NCBI GenBank assembly: GCA_028749205.1
Contig: JAQULR010000017.1
Coordinates: 1 to 34,442 of the forward strand
Origin: Acidobacteriota bacterium
GTDB taxonomy: Bacteria > Acidobacteriota > Aminicenantia > Aminicenantales > Saccharicenantaceae
DNA length: 34,442 nucleotides
Direction of reading: 5' to 3'
How positions within the stretch are numbered: position 1 is the stretch's first letter; each line of letters starts with the position of its first letter. Positions 13,313 to 20,823 of this stretch are shown piece by piece. A program made the position numbers and the translations under genes. Below the pieces are notes generated by a model. That model had not been told where the DNA came from and ran no database searches. It worked only from the letters and a program-made list of their open reading frames with translations.

Positions 13313-14371
13313 CTAATAGGGAAGAAATATAGCTTTTTCGGGTTTAAGCCTAACTGTTACCTCAGTTAGAATTTCTTGTTTTTCGGGATTGGCAAAAGAA
13401 AAATTTATTTCCGCTTTTTTGGTAAAGGTTGGTGGGGTTTTCTCTGGAGGCTTTTCTCGCCAATTTTTTATTAGGCCGGCTATAGCCGAAATAGCATCTA
13501 CTATGGACACTCCAGGACTAACATACTGGTCTTTCTGAGGTACTAGATAAGGTTTGGTTCCGGGGGGATTAGGTGAGGGGATGGTTATTTTGACCGGGAT
13601 TTTTTGTTGCAAGTATTTAATCGATTTGTAGATAAGGGTATCTCCAATATAAAAGGCCAGCTCGCCTTCAAGGTTTTTTACTGGAGCTGAATCCTGCCTC
13701 TGAACCAGCAACTCTTGATTTTTGAGGTTTCTTTTTTCTACCTTGAATTCCAGAACAAGTCTTTTTCTGATGGTAATATGGTTAGTTTTTAAAAAAATAT
13801 CAAGATTGAGTGAATAAGATCGGTCAAAATAAAAGGGCAGTGGAAGCTGAATAAAATGGAAGCCTCTCATCCAGAGCCCACCTTCTAAGGGATTACCATC
13901 TAACTGGATTTTGTAATAGGTATCAGTTGACAGGTCAAAACTAACCCTGAGAACCTCAGGAATAGTGCGGTCCTCAGCAGAAGCCGGCATTAAGAAATTG
14001 AAATTGGTAATCAGCGGATACTCCTGGCGCCATTTTCCCCAGTACTCAAGAGCCTGGTTAAAGACCCTGAAATCAAGGAAAGACAACAGGGGCTGACTAT
14101 CCCCGAATTCTTCAAAATAATCAATAAGAGCCTTTTTTTCTTCATCTGGCAGGTTGTTTTTAGAATAAATAAAAGGAAGAAGAGCCAGAGCTTCCTGGCG
14201 ATCCGCTGATTCCATCTCTTTAAGAGTAGTCTCCAAAAGGCTTAAGGCCTGTTTATAGTCATTTTCTTTTAGCATAAGGTTTAAGTCTGATTTCCAATCA
14301 GCTCTGAGGAAAACTGGTAGAATGATACAACCAAGGAACAATAGTCCAATAGGCCCGATTCTTTTAATCAT
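13313..14371 (-). CDS. Secreted protein of unknown function, partner of a TonB-like protein
   Basis: I do not recognise this 352-residue protein. It begins with a signal peptide (MIKRIGPIGLLFLGCIILPVF, likely cleaved near residue 24). An alpha-helical stretch follows (~25-110) with the look of TPR-type repeats (KQALSLLETTLKEM, QEALALLPFIY). The remainder is beta-rich and includes a proline-rich PSPNPPGTKPY segment and a PPEKTPPTF linker. Its start overlaps the end of the TonB-like gene by 8 bases, so the two are coupled and probably act together in the periplasm. A predicted terminator follows its stop. No enzymatic motif is visible. Confidence 0.72.
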   Translation of the reverse strand: MIKRIGPIGLLFLGCIILPVFLRADWKSDLNLMLKENDYKQALSLLETTLKEMESADRQEALALLPFIYSKNNLPDEEKKALIDYFEEFGDSQPLLSFLDFRVFNQALEYWGKWRQEYPLITNFNFLMPASAEDRTIPEVLRVSFDLSTDTYYKIQLDGNPLEGGLWMRGFHFIQLPLPFYFDRSYSLNLDIFLKTNHITIRKRLVLEFKVEKRNLKNQELLVQRQDSAPVKNLEGELAFYIGDTLIYKSIKYLQQKIPVKITIPSPNPPGTKPYLVPQKDQYVSPGVSIVDAISAIAGLIKNWREKPPEKTPPTFTKKAEINFSFANPEKQEILTEVTVRLKPEKAIFLPY

Positions 14372-15365
14372 GATAGGTAAACACTAAATAGAATTCTAGA
14401 CTCTTTCCAGGAAAATCTTCTGGCAATGGCGGGAAGGGAGAAGCAAGACGAACAGCAGTAGCCGCGGCTTGGTCCAGTACTTCACTGGAAGTAGAGGTGA
14501 CCATATCCAGTGAAAGTAGCTGACCTTCCCGATCAACAACCAGAATCATAGCGACGTTTTTGTTTTTTGGTAGGATAGCCAGTTGTGGTAATACCCATCT
14601 TGTCTGAATTATACTGACTACTTTTTCAGCCCAAGGCTTTATGTTATATCTATATCCGACTGGAATGTCAGAATCTACCGCTCCTGGAATTCCGGGCCGG
14701 ACTTGGCCAGTCTCAGAAAAACGAAGGCCTTTGCCCGGCTGTTCATAGGCCTTGGGAGCGGCATACTGATAGACATCAGATTTAAGTCCTGGAGGAACTG
14801 TCTCTTTTCCTTCCTCTGATTCTGGTTCAGGACTGACAAACAATTTGAGGCTGAAGTTGTATTTACCAGAAGTTGGACGAAGGCGCGATAGATTTATTCT
14901 GACCCCGGAAGATGTCTGAACCTCACTTGAACCAGAAGCTAAATAAGCATCAAGGTCAAAAGGAACAATTGGCTTTCCCGAACCAGGGCTTTCGGCTAAA
15001 GGCTGCCGACTTTCTGCTCCTGTTCCAGATGCTCCGGGCTCTCCAGGAACTCTTCTTAGCTGAGCTTGTCCACTTTCTCCGGGCCTGCCGGCCAGGTCTT
15101 CGGAAATCGGCGGCTCTTTAATAATCTCAGCCAAATCAGGTGGCATACTGACCTCAGGGTAGGTAGCGATGATTATATTTGTTTCCTTTTCAAAGGGCAG
15201 GATTTTAATGATAATTTTTGCCTGCCTCAAATAAAGTACCAGCAGAACATGCAGCAAAATGGCAATACTTAAACCAATAATCTTTGGTCTGGCTGCCTCC
15301 AGGTCAAAGCGTCCCTTCTTCCTTTTAAGATACAGGGTTAATGATTTAAATCTTATCTTTCTCAT
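14364..15365 (-). CDS. TonB/TolA-like energy transducer protein
   Basis: A 333-residue protein with a basic cytoplasmic N-terminus, one membrane segment (~28-46), a long Pro/Gly/Ser-rich periplasmic spacer (~50-215), and a C-terminal TonB-type domain. The latter is recognised from WAEKVVSIIQTRWVLP, MILVVDREGQLL and ATAVRLASPFPPLPEDF. In known systems TonB uses ExbB/ExbD to energise outer-membrane transport, but neither those genes nor a TonB-dependent receptor is nearby. Instead it is coupled to an unknown secreted protein. A perfect TATAAT lies 35 bases upstream. The gene could equally be a TolA-like or generic TonB-C-terminal protein. Confidence 0.82.
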   Translation of the reverse strand: MRKIRFKSLTLYLKRKKGRFDLEAARPKIIGLSIAILLHVLLVLYLRQAKIIIKILPFEKETNIIIATYPEVSMPPDLAEIIKEPPISEDLAGRPGESGQAQLRRVPGEPGASGTGAESRQPLAESPGSGKPIVPFDLDAYLASGSSEVQTSSGVRINLSRLRPTSGKYNFSLKLFVSPEPESEEGKETVPPGLKSDVYQYAAPKAYEQPGKGLRFSETGQVRPGIPGAVDSDIPVGYRYNIKPWAEKVVSIIQTRWVLPQLAILPKNKNVAMILVVDREGQLLSLDMVTSTSSEVLDQAAATAVRLASPFPPLPEDFPGKSLEFYLVFTYHD

Positions 15366-15557: not shown

Positions 15558-17747
15558 TCAATAAGGCTGCTTAATTAGATAAGTTCTAATCATAATAAAG
15601 CCCAGGCAGAAAGAATTTATCACTAAAAGCAGGTTAAAAAGAAGTTCCAGACCAAGGATAGGTATAAAAATTGATGTGGCCAGCAAAGCCCCCAGAAAAG
15701 AGCCAAACAGGTCTAAAGAATAACCCAATCCATAGCGGGTCTTTTGGTTTAGATAAATAGCATTGCTGACAACAAACAGAAAACCGCCCAGCATACCCAT
15801 TATCAACAACAGGCTGTAGAAAACAGGTTCTGAAGCTGTTCTTAACGACAGCCGGGCCACCGCCAGGAGGATCACAAATCCTCCCTGGACTGCTGTCAGA
15901 TGCTTCAGGCTCAGAGCAGAAAATCTAGCTCGGGCCAGAGTTGAGCCAAGGAAGAGACCAAACATAAACATGGTAAAAAGGAGAGAAATCTTGCTGTAAA
16001 CCAGCCCGAGCCTGGACTGGAAAGTCAGAATTAAACCAACCTCAGCCACTAAAGTAGTAAAACCCATAACCGCCACCGGCAACATTAGGACGGCTCCAGT
16101 TTTTTTCCTACCTAAGGATAAAAATATTATAAGAGCCAAGAATAGCATAACAGGAAGATCAAACAGCCAGAATGGATTTTTCAAGCGATTCAGGGAACCT
16201 AATACCTGGCTTCCAGCTCCAGGAAATTGCTGACTCCAGATCAGCGTCTGATAAAAGTAGCTGATCGGGGCCCGGTCGCTATTCAGGCGAGGCTGACTGA
16301 CCGATTGAAGCCTGGACCTCAGATATTCCTTCTTGAATGGGTGAAGCCGGCTCTGGAGAAGCTCAGGGCGAAAATAGACTGTTTCCAGGTTGAGGTAAGT
16401 AAGCTTTTCCAGGAGGCTTGGGTTGGAGATATCAAGCTGGTTATTAGAAGCCAGAAAAATGTTATTGTCTCCAGGCACAATTTCTACTTCCTGAAAAATT
16501 GACTTTAAGGAGCTTAAAATGGAGGCTAGAAGTTGGGTTCTCTCGTCAGAAAGATAATTTTCTGATGAAGGCAGAAGGAAAGACAACACCCCATCAGGAG
16601 TTAATTTTTCCTTGGTCACGGAGAAAAAGTCAACTGTGTAAAACCGGTTAACCTGAGCGGTTACCGGCTCGGGAAGGTTACAGATAATCAAATCGTACCG
16701 GTCAGTGGTTTGCTGAAGAAATTTCCGGCCATCTTGGAGGTGAACAGTAACTCTGGGATCATCCAGGCAGGTCAATCTTCCAGCCAATACTTTTCGGGCT
16801 AAATCTATCAGGGCTGGATCCAATTCTACATAGTCAACTATAATCTCAGGATATTGCAGAACCTGATCGAGCGCTCCATTTAAGCCCCCACCGATGAGCA
16901 GCAGCTTTTTAGCCCCTGGCCTTTGGAGGACAGCAAAATGGATGGCCTCTTCGGCTGCGGCCGGGTCCGGAAAATTAAAGGCCAGCGAGCTATTACTATA
17001 AAATGAGACCTGCTCAGCCGAGCCCACCACTTGAAGCCTGGCATAAGGTGAATCCTTGGCTGCGATCAACTGGAATGGCTTCCAGTAAATTTTCTCAGCT
17101 GGCCAGTCAAAATTCCAGAGGCCGATTGCTAATATGAAACTGATAACCGTAATCAAAGCTTTATTCCGGTCAGCTAAAAAGCTAAGCATAATACCGGCCA
17201 GCCCAATGATTATTGCCGCTGCCTGCCAGCTGGAAAAAAGTGGAACCAGGAGCAGGTAAACCAATAGCCCCCCAGCAGCTGCCCCTAAAGATTCCAGCTG
17301 ATAGACGGCCATCAGGGAGCCTTTCAGCCAGAAGACATTGTAAACAAAAAGAACCCCGAGAGGCAGGCTGATAAGAAAAGCTATTAGCCAGGAAGTCAGC
17401 AGCACCGGTCCCGGTCCAATCATTTCAGCTGGCAGAACCCCGATGAAAAACCTGGAAAATCTAAGAATTATCAGTAAAACAGTAAAGATCAGAATAACGA
17501 CTGCATAGAACCAACCGGGATTGATGGCCCGAAAGAACTTCTTTTCTGCCAGCAGGCTGCCTAGACTTCCGCCCACCAACCAGAAGGCCAGGACGAATCC
17601 ATAAACCAGTTCATTGCCATAGAACCGGACCTCAAATTCTCGCAGGACTATGATCTGAAAGGAAGTAGCCAGAAACCCGAGCAAGAAAGGGAAGAGGTCC
17701 TTTTTCAGTTCCAGACTCCAGCGATAACCTGACCGCAATGTCGGCAT
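15558..17747 (-). CDS. Membrane protein with spermidine-synthase-like methyltransferase fold domain
   Basis: A 729-residue fusion: about six membrane segments at the N-terminus (residues ~20-215), a soluble Rossmann domain (~225-470) and another six or so segments at the C-terminus (~520-725). The soluble part resembles the spermine/spermidine synthase family (KKLLLIGGG at ~280-288, VELDP at 308-312, RVTVHLQDGRKF). However, the GGGDGG loop reads GGGLNGAL, and the catalytic Asp position reads Asn (YDLIICNLPEP, N357). True aminopropyl transfer is therefore doubtful. Similar fused membrane proteins are known in many bacteria without a settled role. Its start overlaps the upstream radical SAM gene by 43 bases, and no good ribosome binding site is visible, so translation may depend on coupling. 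Confidence 0.83.
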   Translation of the reverse strand: MPTLRSGYRWSLELKKDLFPFLLGFLATSFQIIVLREFEVRFYGNELVYGFVLAFWLVGGSLGSLLAEKKFFRAINPGWFYAVVILIFTVLLIILRFSRFFIGVLPAEMIGPGPVLLTSWLIAFLISLPLGVLFVYNVFWLKGSLMAVYQLESLGAAAGGLLVYLLLVPLFSSWQAAAIIIGLAGIMLSFLADRNKALITVISFILAIGLWNFDWPAEKIYWKPFQLIAAKDSPYARLQVVGSAEQVSFYSNSSLAFNFPDPAAAEEAIHFAVLQRPGAKKLLLIGGGLNGALDQVLQYPEIIVDYVELDPALIDLARKVLAGRLTCLDDPRVTVHLQDGRKFLQQTTDRYDLIICNLPEPVTAQVNRFYTVDFFSVTKEKLTPDGVLSFLLPSSENYLSDERTQLLASILSSLKSIFQEVEIVPGDNNIFLASNNQLDISNPSLLEKLTYLNLETVYFRPELLQSRLHPFKKEYLRSRLQSVSQPRLNSDRAPISYFYQTLIWSQQFPGAGSQVLGSLNRLKNPFWLFDLPVMLFLALIIFLSLGRKKTGAVLMLPVAVMGFTTLVAEVGLILTFQSRLGLVYSKISLLFTMFMFGLFLGSTLARARFSALSLKHLTAVQGGFVILLAVARLSLRTASEPVFYSLLLIMGMLGGFLFVVSNAIYLNQKTRYGLGYSLDLFGSFLGALLATSIFIPILGLELLFNLLLVINSFCLGFIMIRTYLIKQPY

Positions 17748-18832
17748 TTGTTCCGGCTCAATTCTTTTTTCCTGATAGCATAACCATATCGCTCAATGAT
17801 TAATTTACCACAGTTAGGACAATAAGTGTTTTCTCCAGGATGTCCTGGAACATTGCCCACATAAACGTAATGTAAGCCTTCAGTTAAAGCCACCTCCCGG
17901 AGGGCTTCTAAAGTAGAAACCGGAGTAGGTGGCAGGTTTTTGATTAGATACATCGGATGAAAGCGGGAAAAATGGAGTGGGTAGTCAGGACCGATTTCGT
18001 TCTTCAGCCAGCGGCACATTTCCCTGATTTCCTGGGGATTATCATTAAGACTGGGGATTACCAAGTAAACAATTTCCAGCCAGGTTTTTGACCGAGCAAT
18101 CTGTTTGATAGTTTCCAAAACTGGTTGAAGCTCTCCCCGAACATATTCAGTATAAAAGCTCTGATTAAAGGATTTCAAGTCAACTTTGATCGCTTCCACC
18201 ACCTCAATTAAATCGGCCAGAGGTTCAGGGTTAATGAAACCGGCTGTAACCACTACATTTTTAAGACCTTTTTTCCTGGCCAGAACACTACAATCATACA
18301 TATACTCAAAAAAAACCACTGGTTCAGTGTAGGTATAAGCAATGGCCGGACAACGGTATCGCTCGCAGGCCGCGATTAGGGCTTCGGGTGGTAGATTGAT
18401 ACTTTTGACTTGCTCTGGCCTCATCTGGGAAATTTCCCAGTTTTGACAGAATTTGCAGTGGAGGTTGCAGCCGGCTGTCGCCAGAGAGAAGGCCTCAGAG
18501 CCAGGGAGAAAATGGAAAAAGGGCTTTTTTTCTATCGGGTCTACATTCAAACTGGCCACCTGTCCGTAAACCAGAGTGTAGTATTTTCCGCCCTGATTTT
18601 CCCTAACTCCGCAGAACCCTCTTTCCCGGTCTCCTAATTGGCAGTAACGAGGGCAAAGGTTGCATCTGATTTCCCGGTCAGGCAGTTTTTGATAATACCT
18701 GGCTTCCACTCTGGAGAGCCCAGTAGAGGCGGGGTTAATAACCCTGAATAAATTCCCGGAAAGACTAACTCCTGGTAGCAGTAGACAACCACTAGTAGCT
18801 AAGGAACATTTCAAAAAATCTCTTCTATCCAT
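17705..18832 (-). CDS. amrS: AmmeMemoRadiSam-type radical SAM protein with Tat-like signal
   Basis: A 375-residue radical SAM protein related to pyruvate-formate-lyase-activating enzymes. The SAM-cluster cysteines are C122, C126 and C129 (AGCNLHCKFCQNWEIS). A preceding Cys-rich segment (CNLCPRYCQLGDRERGFCG, residues 57-75) is typical of the AmmeMemoRadiSam family. The C-terminus adds a zinc-ribbon-like pair (CPNC ... CRHC). The N-terminus, MDRRDFLKCSLATSGCLLLP, looks like a twin-arginine export signal, which is odd for an oxygen-sensitive enzyme using cytoplasmic SAM. The AMMECR1 and Memo partners are not next to it. The gene lies between DUF362 and the membrane methyltransferase-like gene, overlapping the latter by 43 bases. 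Confidence 0.9.
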   Translation of the reverse strand: MDRRDFLKCSLATSGCLLLPGVSLSGNLFRVINPASTGLSRVEARYYQKLPDREIRCNLCPRYCQLGDRERGFCGVRENQGGKYYTLVYGQVASLNVDPIEKKPFFHFLPGSEAFSLATAGCNLHCKFCQNWEISQMRPEQVKSINLPPEALIAACERYRCPAIAYTYTEPVVFFEYMYDCSVLARKKGLKNVVVTAGFINPEPLADLIEVVEAIKVDLKSFNQSFYTEYVRGELQPVLETIKQIARSKTWLEIVYLVIPSLNDNPQEIREMCRWLKNEIGPDYPLHFSRFHPMYLIKNLPPTPVSTLEALREVALTEGLHYVYVGNVPGHPGENTYCPNCGKLIIERYGYAIRKKELSRNKCRHCGQVIAGVWN

Positions 18833-18840
18833 TGTCTTTT

Positions 18841-18870
18841 ATTAAACTGGATTATCTAAAAATAATCCAA
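18841..18870 (-). promoter_or_regulatory. Hairpin and possible leaderless promoter before amrS
   Basis: A perfect 8-bp inverted repeat, TGGATTAT (18848-18855) and ATAATCCA (18862-18869), has a 6-base loop and lies in the 64-bp gap between DUF362 and amrS. It resembles the end of the longer palindromic elements. On the minus strand it overlaps TTGGAT (-35, 18865-18870), an 18-base spacer and TTTAAT (-10, 18841-18846), 8 bases before the amrS ATG. No Shine-Dalgarno sequence is present. It could be a promoter, a processing hairpin or just a repeat remnant. Confidence 0.4.
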
Positions 18871-18896
18871 CAGAATCTTGGTTGCTCTCCTTTATT

Positions 18897-19793
18897 TTAT
18901 ATTTCTTCCTCTATTATCTCTATATTTTCCAACTGGGCTTGACCCAGGTTCATTTTTTCGGCAGTGAATAAATAGCCTGGCTGTCGGTTTTCTTCTTTAA
19001 GCGAGGGTAAACCTTTTTCAGCCCGCAGGTCTTCAATTATCTTCCAGCCAACGGCATCAGCAGCTACCGGGTCAGTACTGAAGACCAGCTTTCGGCTATC
19101 AGCTAACCACTGAGGATGGTAGGATGGGCCGCGATGATACTGGACTCTCAGAGCGTCCAGAATTGTCAATCGATGCTTTTTTCTAATGTAATCAATTTCG
19201 AAAAGCTCAGCTACATAGGGGTTACAATTATAATCATGATATTTGTTAGGGTTATGAATAGCTCCGAAGTAATTTTTCATCCCGGCAGTTACTCCAGCCA
19301 GACCATGGTCTTTTAAAATAGCTAAACTGATACTGGAGCTTATTAGCTCAGCCTGAATTCTGGAAAACAGGCTACCTATGTTGCGATTCACAGTTGGCTC
19401 TTTGAGATAGCCAAGATTACGGCTATCAGTTGCCAGAATCTTCAGACTTCCGCCGGTAGTTGACAATTTATAACCAGCATCTTGAAGTTCTTCGCTGGTT
19501 CTATCCCAGAGGATGACATTTTCTTCCTGTTTAAGGGTTTGCCCCAGCCAGAGCCCTAAAGTCAGAGAAGTCTCCGGTCGGGTGCTCAAAGCCCGGCGGC
19601 CGATAGTATTAATTTTTATGCCGATAGTTTCATCTGTCCGAAACCAGTGGGTCAGAGCTTCTTCAGCCTGGCTGGCTCCGGTCAGAGTCTTGAACCCCTT
19701 TTTATACATAGCCAGGATTATTCCTGCCTCCGGGCGGTTATTATCTTTAAAAACTGAGCCAGCCGTTATTATTACCACTTTCGATTTTTTCAT
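18897..19793 (-). CDS. DUF362 domain-containing protein
   Basis: A 298-residue protein of the DUF362 family. Diagnostic stretches are DETIGIKINTIGRRALSTRP, then LAILKDHGLAGVTAGMKNYF and GAIHNPNKYHDYNCNPYVAE, and a C-terminal FSTDPVAADAVGWKIIEDLR. Many DUF362 proteins carry a ferredoxin-type 4Fe-4S domain or an export signal; this one has neither and shows only one cysteine in the core. The biochemical role of the family is unknown. It is first in a minus-strand series with the radical SAM gene and the membrane methyltransferase-like gene, and is transcribed divergently from the DUF6599 gene. There is no ribosome binding site before the ATG. Confidence 0.85.
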   Translation of the reverse strand: MKKSKVVIITAGSVFKDNNRPEAGIILAMYKKGFKTLTGASQAEEALTHWFRTDETIGIKINTIGRRALSTRPETSLTLGLWLGQTLKQEENVILWDRTSEELQDAGYKLSTTGGSLKILATDSRNLGYLKEPTVNRNIGSLFSRIQAELISSSISLAILKDHGLAGVTAGMKNYFGAIHNPNKYHDYNCNPYVAELFEIDYIRKKHRLTILDALRVQYHRGPSYHPQWLADSRKLVFSTDPVAADAVGWKIIEDLRAEKGLPSLKEENRQPGYLFTAEKMNLGQAQLENIEIIEEEI

Positions 19794-19885: not shown

Positions 19886-19905
19886 GATTTCAAGTGGAGG
19901 ACAAA

Positions 19906-20823
19906 ATGAAGAGGAAAAAGAAATTTTTAAATTATCCTCTTATTAACCTAATTTTTTTGCTGTTGGCTTTGCCGATTGTAACTTTGGCCGGTGGGCAAAA
20001 TCCACAGCTTCGAGCCCTGCTACCAGAAATTGCCGGCTGGCAGTTTATGGAACAGCCGCAGACTTATTCACCGGAGACCCTTTTTGAATACATCAACGGA
20101 GCCTCAGAAGCTTATCTCGGCTATAATTTTAAAGAATTGATTGTGGCTGACTACCAGAAAATCGGTACCGAAACTACCATCACCCTGGAAATCTATGATA
20201 TGGGTCAGCCGATTCAGGCTTTCGGGATTTTCAGTTTAGAGCGCTATCCGGAGAATCCAGCAATTGATATCGGGATTGCTGGTTATCTGGAGGGAGAAGT
20301 TTTGAATTTTGTTTCGGGCCGTTATTATATCAAGCTGTTATGTTATAACGGTGACCATCAAACCCCTGACTACCTGAAAATGTTTGCTCAGGGGGTAGAA
20401 GCCAGGATAGAAGAAAAAGCCGGGCTGCCGGAGATATTTAAGCTTTTTCCTGATCAGGGGAAAGTTAAGAATTCCGAAAAATTCATCATGAAAAATTTTA
20501 TGGGCTTTGATTTTTTGAGCAATGGTTATGTGGTCTCATATCGTGGAGATCAAGGGGAATTTGATGGTTTGATCATCGACTGCGGTTCTGAAGCAGAAGC
20601 TAAGCTCAGATTACAGAAAATTTTGGAGTTCTATGGCGGCGGCCAGAGTCCTTTGGTAAAAGAGGGTAGTAAATATCATCAGAAAAACCCTTATGGTCAG
20701 CACCTTATTTTGGCTCAGAATAGAGGTTATATTTATGGGTTTCATCGGATCTCTGACGAGTTGCTGCCGCTGGCCCTAAAGCTTTTTGAAGAGCTGGAGC
20801 AGAACTTAAGATCAAAAAAATAG
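19906..20823 (+). CDS. DUF6599-type secreted protein
   Basis: A 305-residue exported protein of unknown function. A basic N-terminus and hydrophobic core (residues ~10-28, ending in TLAGG) form a signal peptide. The mature part has features I associate with the DUF6599 family: LLPEIAGWQ, TLFEYINGASEAYLGYNFKE, and LEIYDMGQPIQAFGIFSLER. I chose the ATG at 19906 because GGAGG ends 5 bases before it; the in-frame GTG at 19894 lies upstream of that site. An AI-2E-family gene follows after 18 bases on the same strand. This family is frequent in Acidobacteriota and Aminicenantes, from memory, which supports the lineage guess. Confidence 0.82.
   Translation: MKRKKKFLNYPLINLIFLLLALPIVTLAGGQNPQLRALLPEIAGWQFMEQPQTYSPETLFEYINGASEAYLGYNFKELIVADYQKIGTETTITLEIYDMGQPIQAFGIFSLERYPENPAIDIGIAGYLEGEVLNFVSGRYYIKLLCYNGDHQTPDYLKMFAQGVEARIEEKAGLPEIFKLFPDQGKVKNSEKFIMKNFMGFDFLSNGYVVSYRGDQGEFDGLIIDCGSEAEAKLRLQKILEFYGGGQSPLVKEGSKYHQKNPYGQHLILAQNRGYIYGFHRISDELLPLALKLFEELEQNLRSKK

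Follow-up and report, generated by a model that had tools for sequence, protein, structure and literature searches.

We found that three adjacent minus-strand genes in the window (the whole stretch analysed, 34,442 nucleotides), which comes from an uncultured bacterium, probably encode the radical-SAM and membrane components of an AmmeMemoRadiSam system that is exported and has the membrane protein for a partner; judging from sequence, we assign this reading a probability of about 0.7. The genes, their parts and the divergent neighbour are as follows.

18897..19793, minus strand: DUF362 protein, 298 aa (PF04015, 58.6 bits, cut-off 24)
17705..18832, minus strand: AmrS-type radical SAM enzyme of the exported clade, 375 aa (TIGR04337, AmmeMemoSam_rS, 386 bits, cut-off 220)
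18713..18832, minus strand: N-terminal ~40 residues of AmrS, a twin-arginine signal (RRDFLK plus a hydrophobic stretch; RR invariant in 13 aligned relatives)
15558..17747, minus strand: MFS-like 14-helix membrane protein with an inserted SpeE-like domain, 729 aa (AF2, MFS structure match, internal repeat)
17112..17720, minus strand: TM1-TM7 of the membrane protein, residues 10-212 (AF2 helices, hydropathy)
16185..17072, minus strand: SpeE-like domain of the membrane protein, residues 226-521, predicted periplasmic (Foldseek, positive-inside rule)
15576..16175, minus strand: TM8-TM14 of the membrane protein, residues 525-724 (AF2 helices, hydropathy)
19894..20823, plus strand: DUF6599 protein with a signal-peptide-like N-terminus, divergent neighbour (PF20244, 161.9 bits)

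The ORF calls bore out the three genes and the spacing given in a preliminary description of this DNA, namely a gap of 64 bp between DUF362 and AmrS (18833-18896) and an overlap of 43 bp between the ORFs of AmrS and the membrane protein (17705-17747). This overlap was seen again in many relatives, and the ATG of the 729-aa ORF is a putative start. The order of DUF362, AmrS and membrane protein is a conserved unit and not a chance arrangement. Among 80 homologous loci retrieved by the membrane protein, 70 contained all three genes, with trio-bearing loci in Aminicenantes, Acidobacteria, Zixibacteria and Latescibacterota. Because the loci were ranked by similarity to the window, 58 of them were Aminicenantes-type; in the 22 others, AmrS was nearby in 19 and DUF362 in 15, and AmrS was near in 25 of 40 further loci from the same phylum, of which several sit on short contigs. 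The preliminary description would have abandoned its grouping had the trio rarely been adjacent in other genomes, which is not what we found, and its guess of a shared, membrane-linked pathway gains support from this conserved neighbourhood and from the co-occurrence with a Memo-AMMECR1 fusion described below.

The radical SAM protein had been called exported-looking, correctly so, since its N-terminus, MDRRDFLK, is a twin-arginine signal. We called signal peptides by pattern and hydropathy, with Tat assignment by pattern only, and found the Tat pattern in 86 of 94 linked AmrS (a set leaving out rows shorter than 300 aa and L052, L098 and L107, which had no match to the N-terminal Cys motif), whereas none of 20 unlinked second AmrS copies carried a signal. 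The eight without the pattern comprised four Omnitrophota proteins in which Sec-type signals replace Tat (L132, L140, L141 and L146), three RR variants ending in FC (L105, L110 and L118), and L046, which starts at a contig edge. The exported AmrS formed one clade with a support of 100/99 in a tree of 46 rows against 20, and the [4Fe-4S]-binding CxxxCxxC motif was kept in all 115 linked AmrS that reach 330 aa. The nearest solved relatives were radical SAM enzymes of the pyruvate formate-lyase activase type (3c8f); those activate a glycyl-radical enzyme, whereas AmrS has additional cysteine pairs at its two ends and a signal for export. A c-type haem motif, CXXCH, preceded the first Cys motif in 9 of the 94 AmrS (10 of 115 in the larger set), and a CcdA-like ORF was located between AmrS and the transporter in one Omnitrophota locus by Pfam (L132), with a similar ORF read by eye in another (L140). 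The cluster of the window itself showed neither a CcdA-like gene nor a CXXCH ahead of the first Cys motif of AmrS.

The Tat-like N-terminus might serve as a membrane anchor only, leaving the radical SAM chemistry in the cytoplasm. We know of no SAM in the periplasm, and Tat patterns may be over-predicted, both of which speak for an anchor; however, the Sec-type signals of the Omnitrophota AmrS, the CXXCH motifs, the signal peptides borne by the Memo-AMMECR1 partner and the predicted outward position of the SpeE-like domain make it improbable.

The preliminary description had noted the absence of AMMECR1 and Memo. This holds for the window, in which neither is present beside AmrS, but not for the genome (G000), where the search that it had proposed found both, as a Memo-AMMECR1 fusion that has a signal peptide and intact iron ligands (C19) and as stand-alone Memo (C21) and AMMECR1 (C61). 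The genome holds two AmmeMemoRadiSam sets, one signal-less, with AmrS, Memo and AMMECR1 separate, and one exported-looking, consisting of the Tat-signal AmrS of the window and the unlinked fusion; in far relatives, the fusion lies within the same cluster, beside AmrS and in several orientations. A hydrophobic signal starts all listed fused Memo-AMMECR1 proteins (L002, L183-L192) and is absent in 10 of 10 stand-alone Memo; exported Memo was present in 9 of 9 genomes from other phyla, fused in 8. The known AmmeMemoRadiSam system (TIGR04337; Memo, PF01875; AMMECR1, PF01871) has the same three domain families, cysteines and Memo metal ligands, but here all three bear export signals, Memo is fused to AMMECR1, the set is joined by an MFS-SpeE protein and, as a rule, by DUF362, and a separate signal-less set occurs in the same genomes. 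The preliminary description had overlooked this second set, the apparent export of the system as a whole, and the loss of most aminopropyltransferase residues in what it termed a spermidine synthase.

Of 41 genomes that encode the membrane protein, 39 also have the fusion, against 4 of the 78 genomes that lack that protein (Fisher p 2.4e-24, by a test that ignores shared ancestry). The 41 positive genomes are those in which the membrane-protein match also spans the membrane part, shorter matches being taken by eye as other spermidine-synthase-like proteins, and G098, with a fragment at a contig end, was scored as lacking the protein. G007, G046 and G102 had the fusion but no membrane protein, and G022 and G079 the reverse; G102 has a single AmrS only, of the short kind.

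Memo and AMMECR1 are conserved as far as humans. In the Memo alignment, the ligands H72 and H106 were present in 47 of 47 sequences and C250 in 45 of 47. We compared them with H49, H81 and C244 of human MEMO1, given in excerpts of PMC11081632, which calls the protein's primary molecular function unknown; AMMECR1 has been linked to a developmental disorder (PMC5502304).

The membrane protein had been described as a spermidine-synthase-like protein of the membrane; the fold bears this out, the catalytic residues do not. The AF2 model (pLDDT 90.2, pTM 0.89) matched MFS chains with Z 18.8-24.3, the best being 9w1r (Z 24.3 over 344 residues), and an internal repeat (probability 97.6, E 2.8e-12) gives two parallel six-helix repeats, whose positive loops are on the cytoplasmic side; in the model, the final helix (672-724) has the length to cross the membrane twice. 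The SpeE-like domain sits between TM7 and TM8 and was recognised by Foldseek (1uir_B, E 1.4e-13, TM 0.74 to target) and by PF01564 (Spermine_synth, 87.3 bits, residues 266-390). Both halves of the membrane protein obey the positive-inside rule with this domain outside (46/46 and 26/26 sequences), and the domain is accordingly predicted to lie on the periplasmic face of this MFS-like, transporter-like protein. Fused MFS/spermidine synthases (NF037959) and membrane SpeE (PRK03612) have the same fold on membrane helices, with weak profile matches to our protein; here, however, the soluble domain is inserted between two six-helix repeats and predicted to be periplasmic, the catalytic Asp is mostly replaced, and scores are under the family cut-offs.

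The protein missed the NCBIfam equivalog cut-offs for spermidine synthase (115.7 bits against 472 and 95.8 against 260). The Asp of GGGD and that of DxxD are the aminopropyl-transfer residues of SpeE; the former was absent in 72 of 72 rows and the latter present in only 8. Since these acids are mostly replaced, the protein is probably not a spermidine synthase, and we rejected spermidine synthesis as its function on this ground and on that of the missed cut-offs. The labels that NCBIfam and Pfam give the domain would fit a cytoplasmic SpeE-like domain in a fused MFS/spermidine synthase that makes a polyamine-like product, its link to AmrS being operon hitch-hiking; besides the residues and scores, the outward topology of both halves and the co-occurrence with the exported Memo-AMMECR1 fusion argue against this, and we consider it highly improbable.

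The domain retains the GxG loop and an acidic residue that should contact the ribose of the SAM nucleoside. R368 is present in 72 of 72 rows, T371 in 71 of 72, and E396, N397 and Y398 are mostly kept; such conservation near the old active site would suggest chemistry over mere binding. The system might thus be exported with MFS-SpeE as an enzyme that modifies an AmrS product, lipid-linked or exported, by methylation or another change, with SAM arriving via the membrane-spanning part. The SpeE fold would suit such an enzyme, but the aminopropyltransferase acids are mostly replaced and a periplasmic methyltransferase would need exported SAM too; we regard this reading as unlikely, though the strongest of the alternatives.

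The DUF362 model (pLDDT 93.9) has the fold of the LarA nickel-pincer racemases (6d6z, 5huq), with LarA chains at Z 13.8-15.9 and the next unrelated chain at 4.7. A single-protein search against solved structures and a profile search gave no match for DUF362, and direct profile comparison with LarA by hhalign fell below significance (probability 2.2). H163 and K173, invariant in 43 rows, have the spacing of LarA His174 and Lys184, whose roles, together with the placing of DUF362 and DUF2088 in Pfam clan CL0471, are given in excerpts of PMC11770544. DUF362 may be a nickel-pincer (NPN) enzyme, in which case the cassette would carry out LarA-like hydride transfer outside the cell. The fold, the His and Lys at LarA spacing, the presence of LarC and lack of a Lar_N match in the window genome, and LarA-like genes adjoining exported AmrS in five genomes are consistent with this, but the profile comparison gave no significant match, and the pincer binding is putative. 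Moreover, two genomes that are 99% complete and in which DUF362 is linked (G013 and G078) lack LarC, which shows no enrichment either (30 of 41 genomes with the membrane protein against 53 of 78 without, read by eye), so that nickel-pincer dependence is an improbable, weak rival. DUF362 is without a signal in the window and in most Aminicenantes, whereas relatives outside Aminicenantes usually have a Tat signal; a twin-arginine count of 14 of 62 Aminicenantes proteins (first 95 residues of mechanically called ORFs) is probably inflated, because of over-long ORF starts.

In the exported AmmeMemoRadiSam system that we favour, AmrS would be exported folded with its cluster and be active on the outer face of the inner membrane, where it would need SAM and electrons. 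The MFS-SpeE protein could pass SAM or a SAM-derived nucleoside over the membrane to AmrS; this step, suggested by the fold, is tentative, at odds well short of even. Electrons may reach AmrS by lineage-specific routes, such as the c-type haem motif or, in two Omnitrophota, the CcdA/DsbD-like protein. The Memo-AMMECR1 fusion would act after AmrS on the same substrate, and DUF362 would be a LarA-fold partner whose Aminicenantes form may stay cytoplasmic or ride out with AmrS. An exported, clustered version with a membrane partner points the substrate search to the cell envelope, and an envelope protein or a membrane lipid is the likeliest substrate.

If radical SAM enzymes do operate in the periplasm, the cell must bring both SAM and low-potential electrons to them, a problem that, to our knowledge, has not been posed before; nor, as far as we know, is radical chemistry of this kind expected outside the cell membrane. 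We put at a little short of even odds the reading in which a complete exported AmmeMemoRadiSam carries out radical-SAM chemistry outside the cytoplasm, served by a dedicated membrane transporter whose own outward-facing domain binds SAM; it would be the first radical SAM pathway in that location, and its transporter the first SAM exporter of this kind. No description of an exported AmmeMemoRadiSam or of an MFS-SpeE partner was found in the open-licence PMC literature, beyond which one may exist, for instance in a 2019 paper on Memo-AMMECR1 systems that is cited in excerpts of PMC7159879.

In most Aminicenantes loci, and also in L136, L149 and L152, the DUF6599 gene adjoins DUF362; counted by eye, it was present in 34 of the 41 genomes that have the membrane protein and in 22 of the 78 that do not. 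Its product is a possible partner or substrate, the role of substrate being set aside in view of the moderate association. Some 20-30 loci, almost all from Aminicenantes, have Hdr/Kor/FlpD genes immediately downstream of the membrane protein; as most far loci lack them, we took these genes as lineage context and not as part of the system.

The three minus-strand reading frames of the preliminary description were borne out at the positions it described:

18897-19793, minus strand, DUF362 protein (DUF362 family match, 58.6 bits)
17705-18832, minus strand, AmrS, a radical SAM protein (AmmeMemoSam_rS TIGR04337, 386 bits against a cut-off of 220)
15558-17747, minus strand, membrane protein of 729 aa with a spermine-synthase domain inside

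The N-terminus of AmrS, MDRRDFLK and then a hydrophobic stretch, fits a twin-arginine pattern. The closest named relatives of the window were Candidatus Aminicenantes and Candidatus Saccharicenans genomes; in the twelve nearest of them the membrane protein is 54-70% identical to that of the window. In the closest kin, the cassette is followed by genes for a TonB-C-terminal protein and for one of 352 aa that matches no Pfam family (window 13313-15365).

Among 119 genomes of the phylum searched at the protein level, 41 have the membrane protein, counting long homologues picked by eye. AmrS lay near it in 25 of 40 loci, the window's own excluded, and far relatives have a Memo-AMMECR1 fusion, with its own signal, next to these two genes or in the space separating them. 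From a scan of the GTDB collection, which yielded at least 533 relatives, 80 loci were kept; these were biased to the window's kin, 58 being of Aminicenantes type and 22 others, including Acidobacteria, Omnitrophota, Zixibacteria, Latescibacterota, Poribacteria and Gemmatimonadota. Among these 80, AmrS was near in 77 and DUF362 in 70, and all three genes, proposed earlier as one cassette, stood together in 70. The fusion was near in 12 of the 80. In about 20-30 loci, nearly all Aminicenantes, such as L128 (10248-16935), the membrane protein is followed by HdrC/HdrB-like, POR/Kor, HdrA-like and FlpD genes. One record titled Clostridiales (L089) has an Aminicenantes-like cassette and is probably a mislabelled metagenome bin.

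The usual partners of AmrS, AMMECR1 and Memo, had been described as absent, which is correct for the window but not for its genome, G000, which encodes both. AMMECR1 has two copies: that on C61 stands alone and has no signal peptide, and that on C19 (L002) closes a Memo-AMMECR1 fusion protein of 483 aa, which has a signal peptide. Besides this fused Memo there is a separate Memo on C21, and C58 gave a third, weaker Memo match; a second AmrS (339 aa) lacks a signal. The copies with and without signals thus make up two sets, one exported-looking and one signal-less, the latter spread over three contigs (AmrS on C18, L153; Memo on C21, L173; AMMECR1 on C61, L001). The fusion was found in 39 of the 41 genomes with the membrane protein versus 4 of the 78 without it (Fisher p 2.4e-24, kinship ignored), and one of these four (G098) has a membrane-protein fragment at a contig end. 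In other phyla, nine genomes traced from their loci all encoded an exported Memo, which was fused to AMMECR1 in eight. A Poribacteria locus (L198) has a stand-alone Memo with a lipoprotein-like signal.

These data are best explained by an AmmeMemoRadiSam system that works outside the cytoplasm and has an MFS-SpeE protein as its partner in the membrane; membership and gene linkage are established at the level of sequence and the extracytoplasmic location is predicted from several independent signs. The membrane protein may act as SAM supplier to the system, and the nature of the substrate can likewise only be inferred. We found no description of such a system in open-licence PMC papers.

Among the linked AmrS, the N-terminus was readable in 94, and 86 of these showed the Tat pattern; the other eight comprised four Omnitrophota proteins with Sec-type signals, three RR variants and one cut sequence. 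None of 20 unlinked second AmrS copies had a signal. When 46 exported AmrS and 20 without a signal were placed in one tree, with most of the N-termini trimmed off, the exported proteins formed one side of a branch (support 100/99). The fusion had a signal-peptide-like stretch wherever its start was clear, and 10 of 10 stand-alone Memo proteins had no such start; one Latescibacterota fusion (L199) lacks a signal, and an exported fused copy is also present in that genome. Outside Aminicenantes, 26 of 31 loci encode a DUF362 with a twin-arginine pattern; the window's DUF362 had none.

All 115 linked AmrS with a length of 330 aa or more kept the CxxxCxxC motif. In the exported fusions, H72 and H106 were invariant (47/47), C250 was retained in 45/47, and C361 of the AMMECR1 part was invariant. 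Based on motif and order rather than a computed alignment, H72, H106 and C250 are taken to correspond to H49, H81 and C244 of human MEMO1, iron-binding residues according to excerpts of PMC11081632.

An AlphaFold2 model of the membrane protein from 46 aligned sequences (pLDDT 90.2, pTM 0.89) placed a soluble domain (226-521) between two sets of seven helices, the last helix (672-724) being counted as two spans. The soluble domain matched spermidine synthases in structure and the helices matched MFS transporters, 9w1r with Z 24.3 and an rmsd of 3.7 over 344 residues. A comparison of the two halves showed them to be related (probability 97.6, E 2.8e-12), helices 1-6 matching 9-14. In both halves, the loops that would face inward with the soluble domain outside carried the Lys/Arg (46/46 and 26/26 sequences), a count favoured by the greater length of these loops. 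We compared 72 rows, from two alignments sharing the window row and some genomes, with solved spermidine synthases: the Asp after GGG was replaced in 72/72, the next catalytic Asp was kept in 8/72, the glycine loop and E308 were mostly kept, and R368 was invariant.

AlphaFold2 (pLDDT 93.9) and structure comparison place the modelled DUF362 in the LarA fold. Its H163 and K173, invariant in 43 rows, have the spacing of LarA His174 and Lys184, whose roles are given in excerpts of PMC11770544. A LarA-like gene lies beside exported AmrS in five genomes, four of these regions having been selected because the gene was already known there; L233 to L237 show the operon-like order Memo-AMMECR1, DUF362, AmrS, LarA. 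G000 encodes LarC (C26:29474-30592), and no LarA (Lar_N) was detected in this incomplete genome at E 1e-15. A nickel-pincer role of DUF362 is only a lead, because the DUF362 and LarA sequence profiles gave no significant match and LarC was not found in two near-complete genomes with linked DUF362.

CXXCH, the attachment site of c-type haem, occurred before the first cysteine pair in 9 of 94 linked AmrS. Between AmrS and the membrane protein, two Omnitrophota loci have an additional reading frame, a DsbD/CcdA-family membrane protein by Pfam in L132 (7321-8019) and CcdA/DsbD-like by eye in L140 (7318-7977), and L052 has a short membrane reading frame with, by eye, two histidines in its helices. 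Such membrane proteins, though in a minority of loci, would fit a need for electron delivery to an exported iron-sulphur enzyme.
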